From Lentisphaeria bacterium (GTDB taxonomy: Bacteria > Verrucomicrobiota > Lentisphaeria > Victivallales > UBA1829), in assembly GCA_017455665.1 (NCBI GenBank), contig JAFSZN010000044.1, positions 1 through 40,892 on the forward strand: 40,892 nt of DNA, read 5' to 3'. Positions 19,132 through 26,514 of the stretch are shown here, one piece after another. The notes under the pieces are model-generated. The model did no database searches. It saw only the letters and a list, made by a program, of their open reading frames with translations, and was not told the origin of the DNA. Position numbers and translations under genes: made by a program. The number at the start of each line of letters is the position of its first letter. Position 1 is the stretch's first letter.

Positions 19132-19200
19132 GATTTCAAAGACAATCGGATGGATGCCCGATTTGTCGCCTCAAAACAAAAAAAACGGGAAGCCGTGTAG

Positions 19201-19307
19201 ATTCGGCGGAAAAAATGCGTTCTTATGATCGTGTCTTTCCTGCCGGTACATCAAAAACTGAAAAATTTTGATGCGGGGCGTTGAATCGGCGGGAAAGACG
19301 CGTTCTT
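19201..19307 (+). promoter_or_regulatory. Structured leader with alternative hairpins before the repeat protein
   Basis: Three related 16-24 base segments: R1 (19201-19224), an inverted copy R2 (19230-19245, CGTGTCTTTCCTGCCG) and R3 (19284-19307). R1 and R3 match at 20 of 24 bases. R2 can pair over 16 bases with R3 at 19287-19302 (14 Watson-Crick plus two G-U pairs in RNA), with an 8-bp inner stem CATCAAAA (19249-19256) to TTTTGATG (19266-19273). R2 can instead pair less perfectly with R1. This makes mutually exclusive folds, 70 to 180 bases before the ATG at 19378. Whether it is transcribed with the gene is inferred. Confidence 0.5.
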
Positions 19308-19377
19308 GAAAATGCGGGACAAAGGCCCGATGAAATAGGAACAAAAACCGCAAACGACATAATGCAAGGAGGCTACT

Positions 19378-20412
19378 ATGAACAAGATTCTCACACTCGC
19401 AGTCGCCGGGATCCTTTTCGCCGGAATCGGAACAACCGGAATCGTGAACGCACAGGCACCCCTCGGCAGACAGCAGACCGGGGCTTTCCAGCCCGGACAG
19501 ATGGGCGGATTCGGATTCGGCAGAGGCGCACAGCAGCGCGGCGGATTCGGCTTCGGCGCGGTTCCTCAGGCGGGACGCCAGCAGGCAGGACGCGGCGCAC
19601 AGCAGCGCGGCGGATTCGGTTTCGGCGCGGCTCCTCAGGCGGGACGCCAGCAGGCGGGACGCGGCGCACAGCAGCGCGGCGGATTCGGTTTCGGCGCGGC
19701 TCCTCAGTCGGGACGCCAGCAGGCAGGACGCGGCGCACAGCAGCGCGGCGGATTCGGTTTCGGCGCGGCTCCTCAGGCGGGACGCCAGCAGGCAGGACGC
19801 GGCGCACAGCAGCGCGGCGGATTCGGCTTCGGCGCGGCTCCTCAGGCGGGACGCCAGCAGGCGGGACGCGGCACACAGCAGCGCGGCGGATTCGGTTTCG
19901 GCGCGGCTCCTCAGGCGGGACGCCAACAGAGAGCCGGAAGAGGTGCACAGGGCGGCCGTCAGCAGAGAGCCGGAAGAGGTGCACAGGGCGGCCGTCAGGG
20001 CGGCTTTGGTTTCGGATTCGGCGCGATGCCGCAGAGAGGATTCGGATTCGCTCCTCAGACCGGTCCTCAAGCAGTTCAGCCCCGTGGTCTGCAGGCTGGT
20101 CCGCAGGCGCGCGGCCCCCAGGCTGGTCCGCAGGCGCGTGGTCCGTTAGCTGGTCCGCAGGCGCGTGGTCCCCAGGCTGGTCCGCAGGCAGGTCCGCAGC
20201 CCCGCGGTCCGCAGGCTGGTCCCGCGGCAGGTCCGCAGGCGCGCGGTCCTCAGGCGGCACAGCCCCGTGGTCCACAGGCGCGCGGCCCCCAGGCTGGTCC
20301 GCAGGCACAGGCGCGCGGTCCCCAGGCTGGTCCCGCGGCAGGTCCTCAGGCACAGGCACGCGGCCCGTTGGCAGGTCCGCAGCCCCGTGGTCCGCAGGCC
20401 AACAGAAGGTAA
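19378..20412 (+). CDS. Secreted GFGFG/Arg/Gln repeat protein without acidic residues
   Basis: A 344-residue protein of unknown function. A signal peptide (about residues 1-25, ending VNAQA) follows a strong ribosome site AAGGAGG at 19366-19372. The mature part holds six 23-residue tandem repeats of the form RGAQQRGGFGFGAAPQAGRQ plus QAG (from 19522, 69 bases each), two RAGRGAQGGRQQ units, then a Pro/Gln/Ala/Arg region of GPQARGPQA-type motifs. I find no Asp or Glu in the mature chain and only a handful of residue types, so it is intrinsically disordered and strongly basic. It may bind LPS, nucleic acid or another polyanion in the envelope; this is inference. The other reading frames through the repeat are open only because of its composition. 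Confidence 0.75.
   Translation: MNKILTLAVAGILFAGIGTTGIVNAQAPLGRQQTGAFQPGQMGGFGFGRGAQQRGGFGFGAVPQAGRQQAGRGAQQRGGFGFGAAPQAGRQQAGRGAQQRGGFGFGAAPQSGRQQAGRGAQQRGGFGFGAAPQAGRQQAGRGAQQRGGFGFGAAPQAGRQQAGRGTQQRGGFGFGAAPQAGRQQRAGRGAQGGRQQRAGRGAQGGRQGGFGFGFGAMPQRGFGFAPQTGPQAVQPRGLQAGPQARGPQAGPQARGPLAGPQARGPQAGPQAGPQPRGPQAGPAAGPQARGPQAAQPRGPQARGPQAGPQAQARGPQAGPAAGPQAQARGPLAGPQPRGPQANRR
19522..19935. repeat. Six 69-bp tandem repeats inside the secreted protein gene
   Basis: Six near-identical in-frame 69-bp units, each starting with the codons for RGAQQRGG. The second to fifth copies differ at only a few bases, which suggests recent expansion or homogenisation; the sixth has GT for GA and an added Arg. 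Copy number could vary between strains and is vulnerable to assembly collapse. Confidence 0.9.
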
Positions 20413-20444: not shown

Positions 20445-20487
20445 AAAAAACTCCCGGTTCCCGCAACGGTCCGGGAGTTTTTTGTTT
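20445..20487 (+). terminator. Rho-independent terminator after the repeat protein
   Basis: A 13-bp stem AAAAAACTCCCGG (20445-20457) and CCGGGAGTTTTTT (20471-20483) with a 13-base loop, ending in a run of T. It separates the repeat protein from the sigma factor operon. Confidence 0.93.
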
Positions 20488-20513
20488 GACTTTCCCGCAA
20501 ACGGAGTTATAGT
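20486..20513 (+). promoter_or_regulatory. Sigma-70-like promoter for the sigma factor/kinase operon
   Basis: TTGACT at 20486-20491, immediately after the terminator, a 16-base spacer and TATAGT at 20508-20513, about 50 bases before the sigma factor ATG at 20562. Confidence 0.6.
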
Positions 20514-20561: not shown

Positions 20562-21158
20562 ATGACTCCGCAGGATGCAGAAGAAATGAATCCCCTCGAT
20601 CCGGTTCTCGCGGAACACCGCGACCGTCTGCTGGCGCTCGCCCGCCGCAACCTGAATCCCGTGCTGCTGCGGCGGATCTCGCCGGAGGACGTGGTGCAGG
20701 AGACCTTGTCGGCGGCGTGCCGCAGGCTTGACTTCCTCCGGAACTGCCCGGAGATCCCGGTGTACTGCAAGCTGAGGCGGATCCTGTTCCAGACCATCAC
20801 GGACCTGGAACGGAAGCATCTGCAGAGTTCGAAACGCGACGCCTACCGCGAATGCGAAGTGGCGGAAGGGGAAGACGTCTCCTCCCCGAAGATGGACTGG
20901 AACCTGTTCGCCGACACCGTGACCGGGCCGCTCACGCAGCTCGCCCGCCAGGACCGCTACGAGCTTCTGCGGAAAACGATGGAGTCCCTGCCGGAACACG
21001 ACCGCGAGATCCTGGAACTGCGGCATTTCGACGGGATGAGCAATACGGAGTGCGCGGAGGCGCTGCACCTGACGCAGAAGGCGGCGAGCATCCGCTACGT
21101 CCGCGCGCTGGAGCACCTGAAGAAACAGCTGATCGAATTTACCGAGTTCCGGCCGTGA
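20562..21158 (+). CDS. ECF-type RNA polymerase sigma factor (PVC kinase-linked type)
   Basis: A 198-residue sigma-70 family protein. Region 2 is seen at about residues 15-90, with RISPEDVVQETLSAACRRL holding the core-binding helix, and region 4 at about 143-198 with LPEHDREILELRHFDGMSNT as the -35-binding helix-turn-helix. No sigma 3 domain is present, as in ECF factors. Planctomycete-type ECF proteins paired with Ser/Thr kinases have this layout, and here the TGA overlaps the GTG of the kinase (GTGA), so the two are produced together. No anti-sigma gene is seen. The kinase may act as the partner or regulator (inference). Confidence 0.88.
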   Translation: MTPQDAEEMNPLDPVLAEHRDRLLALARRNLNPVLLRRISPEDVVQETLSAACRRLDFLRNCPEIPVYCKLRRILFQTITDLERKHLQSSKRDAYRECEVAEGEDVSSPKMDWNLFADTVTGPLTQLARQDRYELLRKTMESLPEHDREILELRHFDGMSNTECAEALHLTQKAASIRYVRALEHLKKQLIEFTEFRP

Positions 21159-23809
21159 ACGACGACACGACATTTGAAGACCTGATCGAATCGTATCTGG
21201 AGATGTTCCGGGAAGGAACGGCTCCGGAGATCGGCGATTTCACGCACCTCCATCCCGAATACGCCGACCGTCTCGCGGAGCTTCTGCCGCTGATGGTGAA
21301 GATGGAGAACTGCGCCGCCGACACGCGACGGGACCATGCACACGCCGTTTCGGGCGGGGAATTCCCGGACCTGAGCGGATCGGACTACCGTCTGATCCGG
21401 AAGATCGGCGCGGGCGGCATGGGCGAAGTCTTCGAGGCCACGCAGATTTCGCTGGACCGGAAAGTCGCGGTGAAGGTGCTTTCGCCGTCGCTGACATCCG
21501 ATCCGGCACAGCGGGACCAGTTCGAAAATGAGGCGCGCGTGATCGCAATGCTCCACCATCCGAACATCGTGAAGATCTACAACGCGGGCGTCAGCGCCGA
21601 CCGGTGCTACTACGCCATGGAGCTGATCGACGGCACAGGACTGAACCGATGCGAAGCATGCCCCCCGCGCGAGATCGCGCGCCTGGGGCTTCAGGCCGCC
21701 CGTGCGCTCGCCTACGCCCACAGATGCGGCGTCCTGCACTGCGACGTGAAGCCCGCGAACCTGCTGCTGGACAGGCAGGGCGAGATCCATATCGGCGACT
21801 TCGGGCTGGCGTTCGTGCAGAAGGACGAGATCGGAAAACCGGGCAGGTCCGGGATGCGGAGCGGGACGCTGCGCTACATGGCGCCGGAACGCCTCAAACA
21901 CGGCATCAGGGCGTTTGCAGGAGACCAGTATTCATTCGGGATTACGCTGTATGAACTCATCACGCATGCCCCGGTCCTGCCGGAACAGAACCCGCAGAAA
22001 CTGATCGACCGCATCTGCGCCGGCCAGCTTCCGCCGCTGCAATGCTCCGAACCCGACCTGGCGGCGATCGTCAACCGCTGCGTCAGCTTCGATCCTGCGG
22101 CACGTTATCCGGGCATGGCGGAAGTCGCCGCCGACCTGGACCATTTCCTCCGCCACGAACCCGTTTCGGCGGCGAACACGTCGGCGTTCCGGCGGTTCCG
22201 GCTCTGGGCGAAACGCAAGCCCGCGGTGGCGGCGCTGAGCCTGCTGGCATTGACCGCGATCGCGGCGTTCGCCGTCTCCGTGACGGTCGGCTATGTCCGC
22301 ACCAATTCCGCCCTGAAACTTGCCGAGAAGAACGCCGCCGCGGCAAACGCCGCGCTGTCCGACATCTTCGCCCACATCGAACACCGCACGCCGACTTCGA
22401 GCGGAAGCGAACTGCTTTCCCGCCTGATGCCGTATTACCAGGACATCGCCGAACAGCGCAACCTGCCGCAGTCGGAGATCGCGGACATGAACCTGCTGAT
22501 CGGGACCGCCGCCATGCGGTCCGGCAACTATCCGCTCGCCGAAAACGCGTTCCGGCGCGCCGCCGATCTCCGGACCGACGCCGCCACGCTGAACCTGCTT
22601 GCCGTCGTGCTCCGGCAGCAGGGAAAGACGGCTCAGGCGGAAGAACTGTCGCACCGGGTCATCGAGGAATATCCGCAGACCTGCGAAGCGGTCCGCGCCT
22701 ACCAGTCCCTGGGCGAATACGACGCGGCGTTCGCCCTGCTCCGTTCGCTCCTCCTTGCCGACCCGGAGAATCCCGACTACCTTTACCAGTATGTCCTGCT
22801 GCTGGAAACGCAGCCCGGACTTGCCTCGTCCGACCCGATCCCCGGCGTCGATCCGAACCCGCCGGAGATCCTCGGCAAGCTGGCGAAACAATACCCCGAC
22901 CGCATGGAATTCTCCCTGGCGCTCGTCGACCTGATGAGCCGGAGGCTGAACGCGCAGACGCGGTTCAGCACGCAGAACAGGCAGTCGCTCGAACAGGCGC
23001 TCGCCCTGGCGGACCATCTGCTGGCGTGGTACCCGAACACGCCCGAAGTCGCCTCGGCCGCCGTGGAGCTTTACACCGCCTATATCGCCCTTCTGCGGCG
23101 GAGCGGCGACCAGGCCGCCGTGCGCAGCGAAACGGCGCGCCTGCAGGGAATGCTGGAGATCCTGTACCGCAGTCCGGACGCCCCGGACGAGGTGAAGGAG
23201 ACCCTGCTCGAGATGCAGATGGAACAGCTGGAACAGATGAGCGCGCCCGCGCGGATCCAGCCGGGTAACATTCAGGAACTCGCCTCGAAGATACGGGACG
23301 AACTGGACGACTACCACGGGGACAGACTCACGGAGTTTCAGATGGAACTGGCGCGGCTGGAGTCAAATCTTCCGGCGGCGGTCCGTCCGGGCGCGGCCGG
23401 ACGCCAGCCCATGCCGGGCGGACGCCAGCCTGTTCAGCCGGGCAGACAGCCGGGCAGACAGAATCCGAATCCGGCTTTGCAGCCAAGGGCATGGACGCGT
23501 ACTCCGGCGACCTCGCAGAACGGGACCAGACAGGGCCGAACCGGAAACATCTTCATGCCTCCCGCCGGAGGCGTGATGAGACCGTTTGCGCCGAACAGCA
23601 ACCGTCCGGCGTTCAACCGTGACCGGACCGCGGGCGGCTCCGGACGCGGCGGACGGAATGAGAACGCCGCCGGACGCGGCGGCGCGGAAGCAGGACAGAA
23701 CGATAATCCCGCCGGACGCAATAACGGCGCGGAAGCGGGACAGAACGATAATCCCGCCGGACGCGAGAAAACGGACGACGGACAGGATCGACCGGCTTCC
23801 GATGCGTGA
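21155..23809 (+). CDS. Membrane Ser/Thr protein kinase with TPR-like region and low-complexity tail
   Basis: An 884-residue kinase started by GTG 21155. Residues 1-77 carry the kinase-associated N-terminal region common in planctomycete kinases (FTHLHPEYADRLAELLPL). The kinase domain follows: P-loop GAGGMGEV (about 85-92), Lys107 in VAVKVL, catalytic Asp197 in HCDVKPANLLLD, DFG at about 215, then an APE motif. All key residues are present, so it should be active. A membrane helix (about 357-381, LSLLALTAIAAFAV inside) places the rest in the periplasm: alpha-helical TPR-like repeats (YPLAENAFRRAADLRTDAAT), then a Pro/Gly/Arg/Asn-rich tail with GAEAGQNDNPAGR twice. The tail resembles the composition of the secreted repeat protein just upstream. 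Confidence 0.92.
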   Translation: MNDDTTFEDLIESYLEMFREGTAPEIGDFTHLHPEYADRLAELLPLMVKMENCAADTRRDHAHAVSGGEFPDLSGSDYRLIRKIGAGGMGEVFEATQISLDRKVAVKVLSPSLTSDPAQRDQFENEARVIAMLHHPNIVKIYNAGVSADRCYYAMELIDGTGLNRCEACPPREIARLGLQAARALAYAHRCGVLHCDVKPANLLLDRQGEIHIGDFGLAFVQKDEIGKPGRSGMRSGTLRYMAPERLKHGIRAFAGDQYSFGITLYELITHAPVLPEQNPQKLIDRICAGQLPPLQCSEPDLAAIVNRCVSFDPAARYPGMAEVAADLDHFLRHEPVSAANTSAFRRFRLWAKRKPAVAALSLLALTAIAAFAVSVTVGYVRTNSALKLAEKNAAAANAALSDIFAHIEHRTPTSSGSELLSRLMPYYQDIAEQRNLPQSEIADMNLLIGTAAMRSGNYPLAENAFRRAADLRTDAATLNLLAVVLRQQGKTAQAEELSHRVIEEYPQTCEAVRAYQSLGEYDAAFALLRSLLLADPENPDYLYQYVLLLETQPGLASSDPIPGVDPNPPEILGKLAKQYPDRMEFSLALVDLMSRRLNAQTRFSTQNRQSLEQALALADHLLAWYPNTPEVASAAVELYTAYIALLRRSGDQAAVRSETARLQGMLEILYRSPDAPDEVKETLLEMQMEQLEQMSAPARIQPGNIQELASKIRDELDDYHGDRLTEFQMELARLESNLPAAVRPGAAGRQPMPGGRQPVQPGRQPGRQNPNPALQPRAWTRTPATSQNGTRQGRTGNIFMPPAGGVMRPFAPNSNRPAFNRDRTAGGSGRGGRNENAAGRGGAEAGQNDNPAGRNNGAEAGQNDNPAGREKTDDGQDRPASDA

Positions 23810-25050: not shown

Positions 25051-26496
25051 TTATTTTTTGCGGCGTTTCTTTTTCGGCGGGGTGTAGTTGCTGCCGCGCA
25101 TGCGGAAGCCGCCCATTCCACCCATGCCTCCGAAGCCGCCCATGCCGCCCATGCTGCCGAAACCGCCCATGCCGCCGCCGAAGCCGCCGCGCATGCCGCC
25201 CGCCATCCGGTCGAGCAGACTGTTGTTCTTCATGACTTTCTTCATGAGGAGGAACTGCTTGATGAGCTGGGAGACTTCCTCGACGGAGCGTCCGGAGCCC
25301 TTCGCGATACGTCTGCGCCGGGGCATGTCGATCTGTTCGGCGTTGGCGCGTTCGTATTTGGTCATGGAGAGGATGATCGCCTCCATGCCGGCGAATTTCG
25401 ATGGCGCGAGCTCGGCGATGCCGGAGAGCTTGTCGCCGCCGGGCAGGAATTTCAGGATGGCTTCGAGGCCGCCGAGGCGCGTCATCTGGCGCAGCTGGCC
25501 CAGGAAGTCGTCGAAATCGAACGTATTCTTGCGGATCTTCTCCTCGAACTTCGCCGCTTCCTCCTGGTCGATCTTTTCCACGGCGCGTTCGACCAGCGAG
25601 ACCACGTCGCCCATGCCGAGGATGCGGGACGCCATGCGGTCCGGGTGGAAGACGTCGAGGTCCTCCAGCTTTTCGCCGGAACCCGTGAACTTGACGGGGC
25701 AGCCTGTGACCTTGCGGATGGAGAGCGCCGCGCCGCCGCGCGCATCGCCGTCGAGCTTGGTGAGCACGATGCCGGTGATATGGAGCGCGTCGTTGAAATG
25801 GCGCGCCACGGAGACGGCCTGCTGGCCGAGGGCGGCATCCGCGACGAGCAGGATCTCGCCCGCCTGCGTGACGCTGGAGACCATCACCAGCTCCTGCACC
25901 ATCGCGGTGTCGATCTGGAGACGGCCCGCGGTGTCGATGATCAGGAAGTCGGCGTTGTCGGAACGCGCATTTTCCAGCGCGCGGAGCGCAATGCCGGGGA
26001 CGTCCCCGACGCCTTCTTCCGCGTAGACCGGGACGCCGATCTCGCCGCCGAGCACCTTCAGCTGGTCGATGGCGGCGGGACGGTACACGTCGCATGCCGC
26101 GAGCAGGACCTTCTTGCCCTTGTTCTTCAGATGCAGCGCGAGCTTGGCGCTGGTCGTCGTCTTGCCGGAGCCGTGCAGGCCGACCATGAGGATGATGTTC
26201 GGATGCGCTCCCGTGTTGAGTTCCGCCTCGGCGGAGCCCATGAGCTCGACGAGCTTGTCGTGGACGATCTTGACCGCCTGCTGGCCGGGGGTGACGCTCT
26301 TCACGACGGCCTCGCCGAGGCACGCCTGCCGGACTTCGGAAACAAACTCGTCGGCGATCTCGATGTTGACGTCGGCGTCGATCAGGGCGTCGCGGACATC
26401 CTGCATGGATTCTGCGATATTGGATTCGGAAATGGTCGTCTGGCCGCGGAGCTTGCGGAAGACTTCCTGGAATTTGTCGGAAAGATTTTCAAACAT
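25051..26496 (-). CDS. ffh: Signal recognition particle protein
   Basis: SRP54 GTPase that delivers nascent membrane proteins to FtsY and SecYEG with 4.5S RNA. The N domain begins MFENLSDKFQEVFRKLRGQ; the G domain has GLHGSGKTTTSAKLA (about residue 105 on), DVYRPAAIDQLKVL, DTAGRLQ and TKLDGDARGGAAL; the M domain contains the GSGRSVEEVSQLIKQF segment with the signal and RNA-binding helix. After it comes a tail of about 30 residues rich in Gly and Met (GGFGGGMGGFGSMGG) ending in a basic KKKRRKK. The start at 26496 is the family start; longer readings upstream are not supported. 481 residues. lpxB is downstream in the same transcript. Confidence 0.96.
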   Translation of the reverse strand: MFENLSDKFQEVFRKLRGQTTISESNIAESMQDVRDALIDADVNIEIADEFVSEVRQACLGEAVVKSVTPGQQAVKIVHDKLVELMGSAEAELNTGAHPNIILMVGLHGSGKTTTSAKLALHLKNKGKKVLLAACDVYRPAAIDQLKVLGGEIGVPVYAEEGVGDVPGIALRALENARSDNADFLIIDTAGRLQIDTAMVQELVMVSSVTQAGEILLVADAALGQQAVSVARHFNDALHITGIVLTKLDGDARGGAALSIRKVTGCPVKFTGSGEKLEDLDVFHPDRMASRILGMGDVVSLVERAVEKIDQEEAAKFEEKIRKNTFDFDDFLGQLRQMTRLGGLEAILKFLPGGDKLSGIAELAPSKFAGMEAIILSMTKYERANAEQIDMPRRRRIAKGSGRSVEEVSQLIKQFLLMKKVMKNNSLLDRMAGGMRGGFGGGMGGFGSMGGMGGFGGMGGMGGFRMRGSNYTPPKKKRRKK

Positions 26497-26514
26497 TTTA
26501 CGGTCTCTTGCGCT

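Follow-up and report, generated by a model that had tools for sequence, protein, structure and literature searches.

The window, the whole 40,892-nucleotide stretch of DNA analyzed here, belongs to a 2.58-Mb genome that is 70% complete. It contains an open reading frame (ORF) for a repetitive, Arg-rich chain that begins with a putative signal peptide. The locus raises the question of whether this chain is a true protein or a chance repeat, which of its properties are kept by selection, and what role such a protein might have in the cell.

Layout and composition of the repeat protein

The acid-free ORF covers exactly positions 19378-20412, with the ATG at 19378 and the stop codon at 20410-20412. 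The features of the locus are listed in Table 1. The Shine-Dalgarno sequence is separated from the ATG by 5 bases.

Table 1. Positions of the repeat gene, its leader and the neighboring features in the window.
Feature	Position	Strand	Evidence or location
Conserved leader in the recO-ORF interval; matched by RNA model R1 at 19198-19324	19195-19377	+	Alignment of 11 relatives
Direct repeat 1 (GATTCGGCGGAAAAAATGCGTTCTT)	19200-19224	+	Near copy of 19283-19307; kept in relatives
Long RNA hairpin with arms at 19231-19247 / 19285-19301 and an apical stem at 19249-19256 / 19266-19273	19231-19301	+	Fold z, pairing
Direct repeat 2 (GAATCGGCGGGAAAGACGCGTTCTT), overlaps the 3' arm of the hairpin	19283-19307	+	Nearly invariant in 11 species
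Shine-Dalgarno sequence AAGGAGG	19366-19372	+	Unchanged in 11/11 aligned leaders
Acid-free repeat protein ORF, 344 aa	19378-20412	+	Translation and relatives
Signal peptide, likely cleavage between VNA and QA	19378-19452	+	Kept across 12 species
69-bp / 23-aa tandem repeats (GAQQRGGFGFGAAPQAGRQQAGR), GFGFG units	19525-19929	+	Tandem Repeats Finder
Two identical 36-bp units (QRAGRGAQGGRQ)	19927-19998	+	Tandem Repeats Finder
C-terminal PQA/RGP repeats, basic NRR at the end	20053-20409	+	Tandem Repeats Finder, translation, alignment
Likely intrinsic terminator (ACTCCCGG...CCGGGAGT and T run)	20450-20483	+	Stem-loop 3' of the stop
Sigma-70-like promoter site	20486-20513		Between the ORF and the sigma gene; pattern only
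ECF sigma factor	20562-21158		3' of the ORF
Ser/Thr kinase with TPRs, transmembrane	21152-23809		3' of the ORF

The N-terminal segment, MNKILTLAVAGILFAGIGTTGIVNA followed by QA, has the properties of a Sec signal peptide: a basic residue at the N-terminus, a hydrophobic core, an A-x-A / V-x-A cut (VNA precedes the likely cleavage site) and conservation in 12 genomes. There is no Cys lipobox. The assignment was made by eye with the -3/-1 rule. The preliminary description had regarded loss of the signal peptide in relatives as evidence against its reading; the segment is present in 12 of 12 relatives.

The mature chain of 319 residues contains 39 Arg and no Asp, Glu, Lys, His or Cys, giving a net charge of +39, and Tyr and Trp are likewise absent. 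The window protein is dominated by Gly (27%), Gln (20%), Ala (19%), Pro (11%) and Phe (6%), and besides Arg there are few other residues. The order described earlier, 23-residue GFGFG repeats followed by Pro/Gln/Ala/Arg repeats, is confirmed both by Tandem Repeats Finder and by translation. The first array has a period of 69 with 5.9 copies and a 96% match, and looser arrays of 27, 39 and 45 bp span positions 20092-20378. As 4 of the 12 assemblies break within the repeat gene, the copy number of the 69-bp unit in assemblies is uncertain. Continuous collagen-like Gly-X-Y triplets are not found, as the Gly residues in the C-terminal part of the chain (GPQARGPQAGPQARGPLAG...) are spaced 4-5 residues apart and not 3. 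The likely terminator comes from a scan where the number of sites is no higher than in its shuffles; a structure resembling it is also located 3' of the repeat gene in two other species (G011 and G008).

Searches of the curated families in Pfam and NCBIfam, of PHROGs and of PDB sequences gave no match to the repeat protein, in agreement with the earlier remark that no family could be recognized. A search of plasmid DNA likewise gave no match, and in the papers searched neither a like protein nor any similar polycation exported by bacteria is described. The chain is predicted to be without a fold, in line with the disorder suggested before. With AlphaFold2, the mean pLDDT is 51 (pTM 0.33) for the single sequence and 47 (pTM 0.14) with an alignment of 8 sequences, and the short strands of the single-sequence model are gone once the alignment is used. 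These low-confidence, non-globular models are consistent with disorder, with low confidence on repeats being no proof of it.

Conservation and selection within one genus

With both plain and profile searches, the repeat protein is found in 12 of the 13 genomes of one rumen Victivallales genus. The profile search proposed in the preliminary description covered 198 genomes of the class and gave no repeat protein outside this genus (12/198 genomes, 1/86 genera). The repeat gene is located directly after recO in all 12 carriers. The genus member that lacks the protein (G006) has a RecO only 57% identical. When a segment of the leader was used for an exact-match scan, ten named records were found, from rumen Lentisphaeria/Victivallales MAGs or uncultured bacteria with rumen (RUG) isolate names, which supports the PVC origin suggested earlier. 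Candidate homologues in other genera were rejected, as the matches are weak (E 0.003-0.5), lie mostly in or across unrelated frames and include no comparable exported protein. Among the loci retrieved, neither the recO regions of other genera nor the surroundings of homologues of the neighboring sigma factor contain a comparable gene. Overall, the searches and alignments indicate that the repeat protein is a true, conserved, genus-restricted orphan family, and not a set of chance repeats.

Eight of the copies are complete, and the other four are split at contig ends inside the repeats. In the alignment of the eight complete proteins, the signal peptide is followed by GFG/RGG repeats and, after a GFGF junction, by PQA/RGP repeats; the chains close with a short basic end. 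Over the 12 genomes the signal peptide, this layout and the basic end are retained, and the repeat units and their lengths turn over, varying by species in length (about 23-25 aa) and in wording. For the longer chains and pieces, the average residue carries a moderate net charge of +0.10 to +0.19.

Asp and Glu are absent from the repeats in 12 of 12 carriers. In comparison, they make up 11.2% of the nine neighboring reading frames, and the rough probability of finding none among the 114 distinct 4-mers of the chain is 1e-6. In frame, GAN codons are found at 1 of 2181 positions in the 12 species (12 chains, N-terminal or complete). The other two frames, with 2169 positions each, have 237 (frame +1) and 42. 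The avoidance therefore acts at the amino-acid level, and selection maintains the lack of acidic residues. The earlier statement that the mature chain has no Asp or Glu holds over the 319 residues of the window protein but not for the entire genus, as the protein of G011 ends in AEKK and a few acidic residues occur in the short, Lys-rich tails at the C-terminus of the G005 and G010 proteins.

The most diverged species (G008) uses the units GPKNGLQK and QRGPQQGF, with Lys and Asn, and the pieces of its mature chain that were recovered contain no Asp or Glu. Because the units are exchanged in this species and the recovered pieces stay acid-free, and because the in-frame GAN count is so low, it is the composition that is kept and not the sequence. 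The alignments indicate that selection keeps the chemistry, namely positive charge, acid-free repeats, Gly/Pro/Gln and spaced Phe residues, and not the sequence or the copy number.

The leader RNA

The region of about 180 bases 5' of the ORF is better conserved than the protein repeats and stands out most among the conserved features of the locus. Its identity is 0.87 over nine species, compared to 0.72 at the fourfold sites of recO. The segment TGATGCGGGGCGTTGAATCGGCGGGAAAGAC is identical in 11 of 11 aligned species; G008, which was added later, departs from it at several bases. The two direct repeats are 25 bases in length. The hairpin consists of a 17-bp helix, followed by an AT-rich apical stem and a variable loop, and the conserved segment CGGGGCGTTGA (19274-19284) sits on one side of it. 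In the alignment of 12, 96% of the hairpin pair cells are standard pairs, versus at most 50% when the pairing is slid. The fold z for the window is -6.0; G008 has -4.0 and G012 -1.2. Four hairpin pairs are altered on both sides. Most of these changes trace to one lineage, G008, and the covariation therefore amounts to only a few events. The covariance model (R1) has matches in the same 12 of 198 genomes as the repeat protein and in no others, and the element is single-copy in the genome of the window. In Rfam, no family reaches its gathering score, and the only matches are far below threshold. A conserved leader RNA tied to the repeat gene and absent from Rfam is thus added to the preliminary description. 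The mRNA of the repeat protein probably begins with this strongly conserved hairpin.

Several other assignments for the leader were considered. A general promoter or regulon motif was rejected for the direct repeats, as no other copy of direct repeat 2 is present genome-wide with up to 3 mismatches and TGTAGAATCGGC is absent. A possible role of direct repeat 1 as an alternative pairing arm, as in a switch, is not supported, with partial pairing by eye and species-specific mismatches. A small upstream ORF (ATGCGGGGCGTTGAA...) within the hairpin is not supported either, having no Shine-Dalgarno sequence and a variable stop position.

In G008 (L035, minus strand, about 210-480), the leader hairpin with the T8 after it resembles a terminator. 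Between this hairpin and the ORF stands another copy of the TGTAGAATCGGC..GCGTTCTT element.

The ompA 5' leader stabilizes the mRNA of an abundant envelope protein (works cited in PMC7509114). Leaders of this type resemble the one described here in having a structured RNA and a strong Shine-Dalgarno sequence in front of a gene for an exported protein. Unlike them, the present leader belongs to no Rfam family. It may act as an mRNA stabilizer, as for ompA, or as an attenuator.

Possible roles and the neighboring genes

The reading that we tentatively place foremost, with confidence somewhat short of even, is a disordered polycation that is exported and then binds and condenses anionic polymers of the envelope or matrix. 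The chain would be exported by Sec, as the conserved signal peptide suggests; both export and disorder have good support. Outside the cytoplasm, the predicted disordered polycation would bind and bridge anionic polymers (LPS, acidic exopolysaccharide or extracellular DNA) in a multivalent manner, as its composition suggests. A condensed coat or matrix could then be formed through Arg-phosphate/carboxylate and Arg-Phe contacts. The protein would probably be abundant, being expressed strongly under control of the leader from its own transcription unit and a strong ribosome site, and the hairpin would probably set the lifetime of the mRNA or a regulated read-through. The preliminary description had proposed condensate formation and binding to LPS or nucleic acids from the composition, and this biophysical picture is reasonable as a hypothesis.

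A precedent for a secreted, charged disordered domain that phase-separates with the opposite charge is the anionic domain of LbpB from Moraxella bovis, whose partners are cationic peptides (PMC11022072). Like the repeat protein, it is exported, bacterial, of low complexity and strongly charge-biased. It differs in having the opposite charge and in being part of a surface lipoprotein that also binds lactoferrin, and no sequence relation is claimed. The eukaryotic nucleolar GAR/RGG domains (fibrillarin, nucleolin, GAR1) are similar in their spaced Arg-Gly and Phe-Gly in a low-complexity chain. With the pattern of PMC9957100, there are seven GAR motif matches in the window protein, at a low coverage of 65 of 344 residues, and short matches in 10 of 12 orthologues, with none in the partial chains of G005 and G010. 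Unlike the GAR/RGG proteins, the repeat protein has no attached enzyme or RNA-binding domain, carries a signal peptide and is rich in Gln, Ala and Pro.

The moderate net charge per residue means that a Gly/Pro/Gln-rich elastomer fits the data almost as well. Elastomeric proteins such as abductin, resilin and elastin-like polypeptides consist of unfolded units in tandem that are rich in Gly/Phe or Pro/Gly, as the repeat protein appears to do. The repeats might then form an extensible, self-coacervating structural layer or envelope filler, with Arg mainly for solubility and cation-pi contacts and not for the binding of polyanions. The dominance of Gly, Gln, Ala, Pro and Phe and the homogenized tandem units are in favor of such a role. 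The family differs from these proteins in that Arg takes the place of the cross-linking Tyr/Lys and in being bacterial and confined to one genus. Against an elastomer, the window protein has no Tyr, Lys or Cys for cross-links, and strict exclusion of Asp and Glu would presumably not be needed. We regard an elastomer as rather unlikely. A secreted cationic factor aimed at competitors, an antimicrobial or surface-active polycation that acts on them and not on the producer's own envelope, would account for the positive charge, the apparent export and the fast change of the repeats in a rumen habitat with dense competition. Against this, a lone gene is found after recO, with no immunity, processing or transporter gene accompanying it and a different next gene in G011, and the chain lacks amphipathic character and far exceeds known Pro/Arg-rich peptides in length, which makes such a factor improbable. 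The transcript itself could be the main product, with the hairpin leader a regulatory RNA and the repeat ORF a weakly constrained passenger. The hairpin is indeed more conserved than the repeats, and in G008 the T8 after it, as in a terminated small RNA, and the repeated element that occurs for a third time ahead of the ORF would suit this explanation. The ORF, however, is intact in 8 of 8 full-length copies and keeps both its signal peptide and the codon-phase avoidance of Asp and Glu, and therefore the protein is also selected; a passenger ORF is the least probable of the explanations considered here.

The two genes 3' of the ORF offer another possibility, in which the repeat protein forms a signaling unit with the ECF sigma factor and the transmembrane Ser/Thr kinase, for example as the extracytoplasmic ligand of the kinase. 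The genes are adjacent in most species. Moreover, the C-terminal tail of the kinase is of low complexity and likewise rich in Arg, Gly, Gln and Pro in 9 of 9 orthologues examined and, located after a hydrophobic stretch, may face outward. The repeat gene is nevertheless separated from these genes by terminator-like and promoter-like sites, known from their patterns, and G011 has the sigma gene on a different contig, with a cysK-like gene in its place after the repeat gene. An operon with the sigma factor and kinase was rejected on these grounds. Homologues of the sigma factor are scattered in other genera, including four genomes where the repeat protein is not found, and the repeats are nearly free of Ser, Thr and Tyr for phosphorylation. 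Because of the intervening sites, the split in G011 and the occurrence of the sigma factor on its own, the linkage is positional as far as the data show, and a joint signaling role is as improbable as the competitor factor. By family, the sigma factor is nearest to the Planctomycetaceae-specific TIGR02984, under the cut-off (138 vs 184 bits).

Returning to the exported polycation, a more ambitious version holds that an Arg/Phe-Gly repeat protein, exported and under selection for its chemistry alone, arose in this genus of rumen Lentisphaerota, where it condenses anionic polymers at the surface and is controlled by a new, signal-responsive leader RNA switch. We consider this version unlikely. 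The family is a clean natural case in which a low-complexity composition is conserved and the sequence is not, in 12 related species and at a fixed locus, and the selection rules for charge and stickers can therefore be read from evolution.

Elsewhere in the window, the frame for Ffh (SRP54), at 25051-26500 on the minus strand, closes with a low-complexity tail rich in Gly, Met and Phe (GGFGSMGGMGGFGGMGGMGGF) and then a Lys/Arg end.
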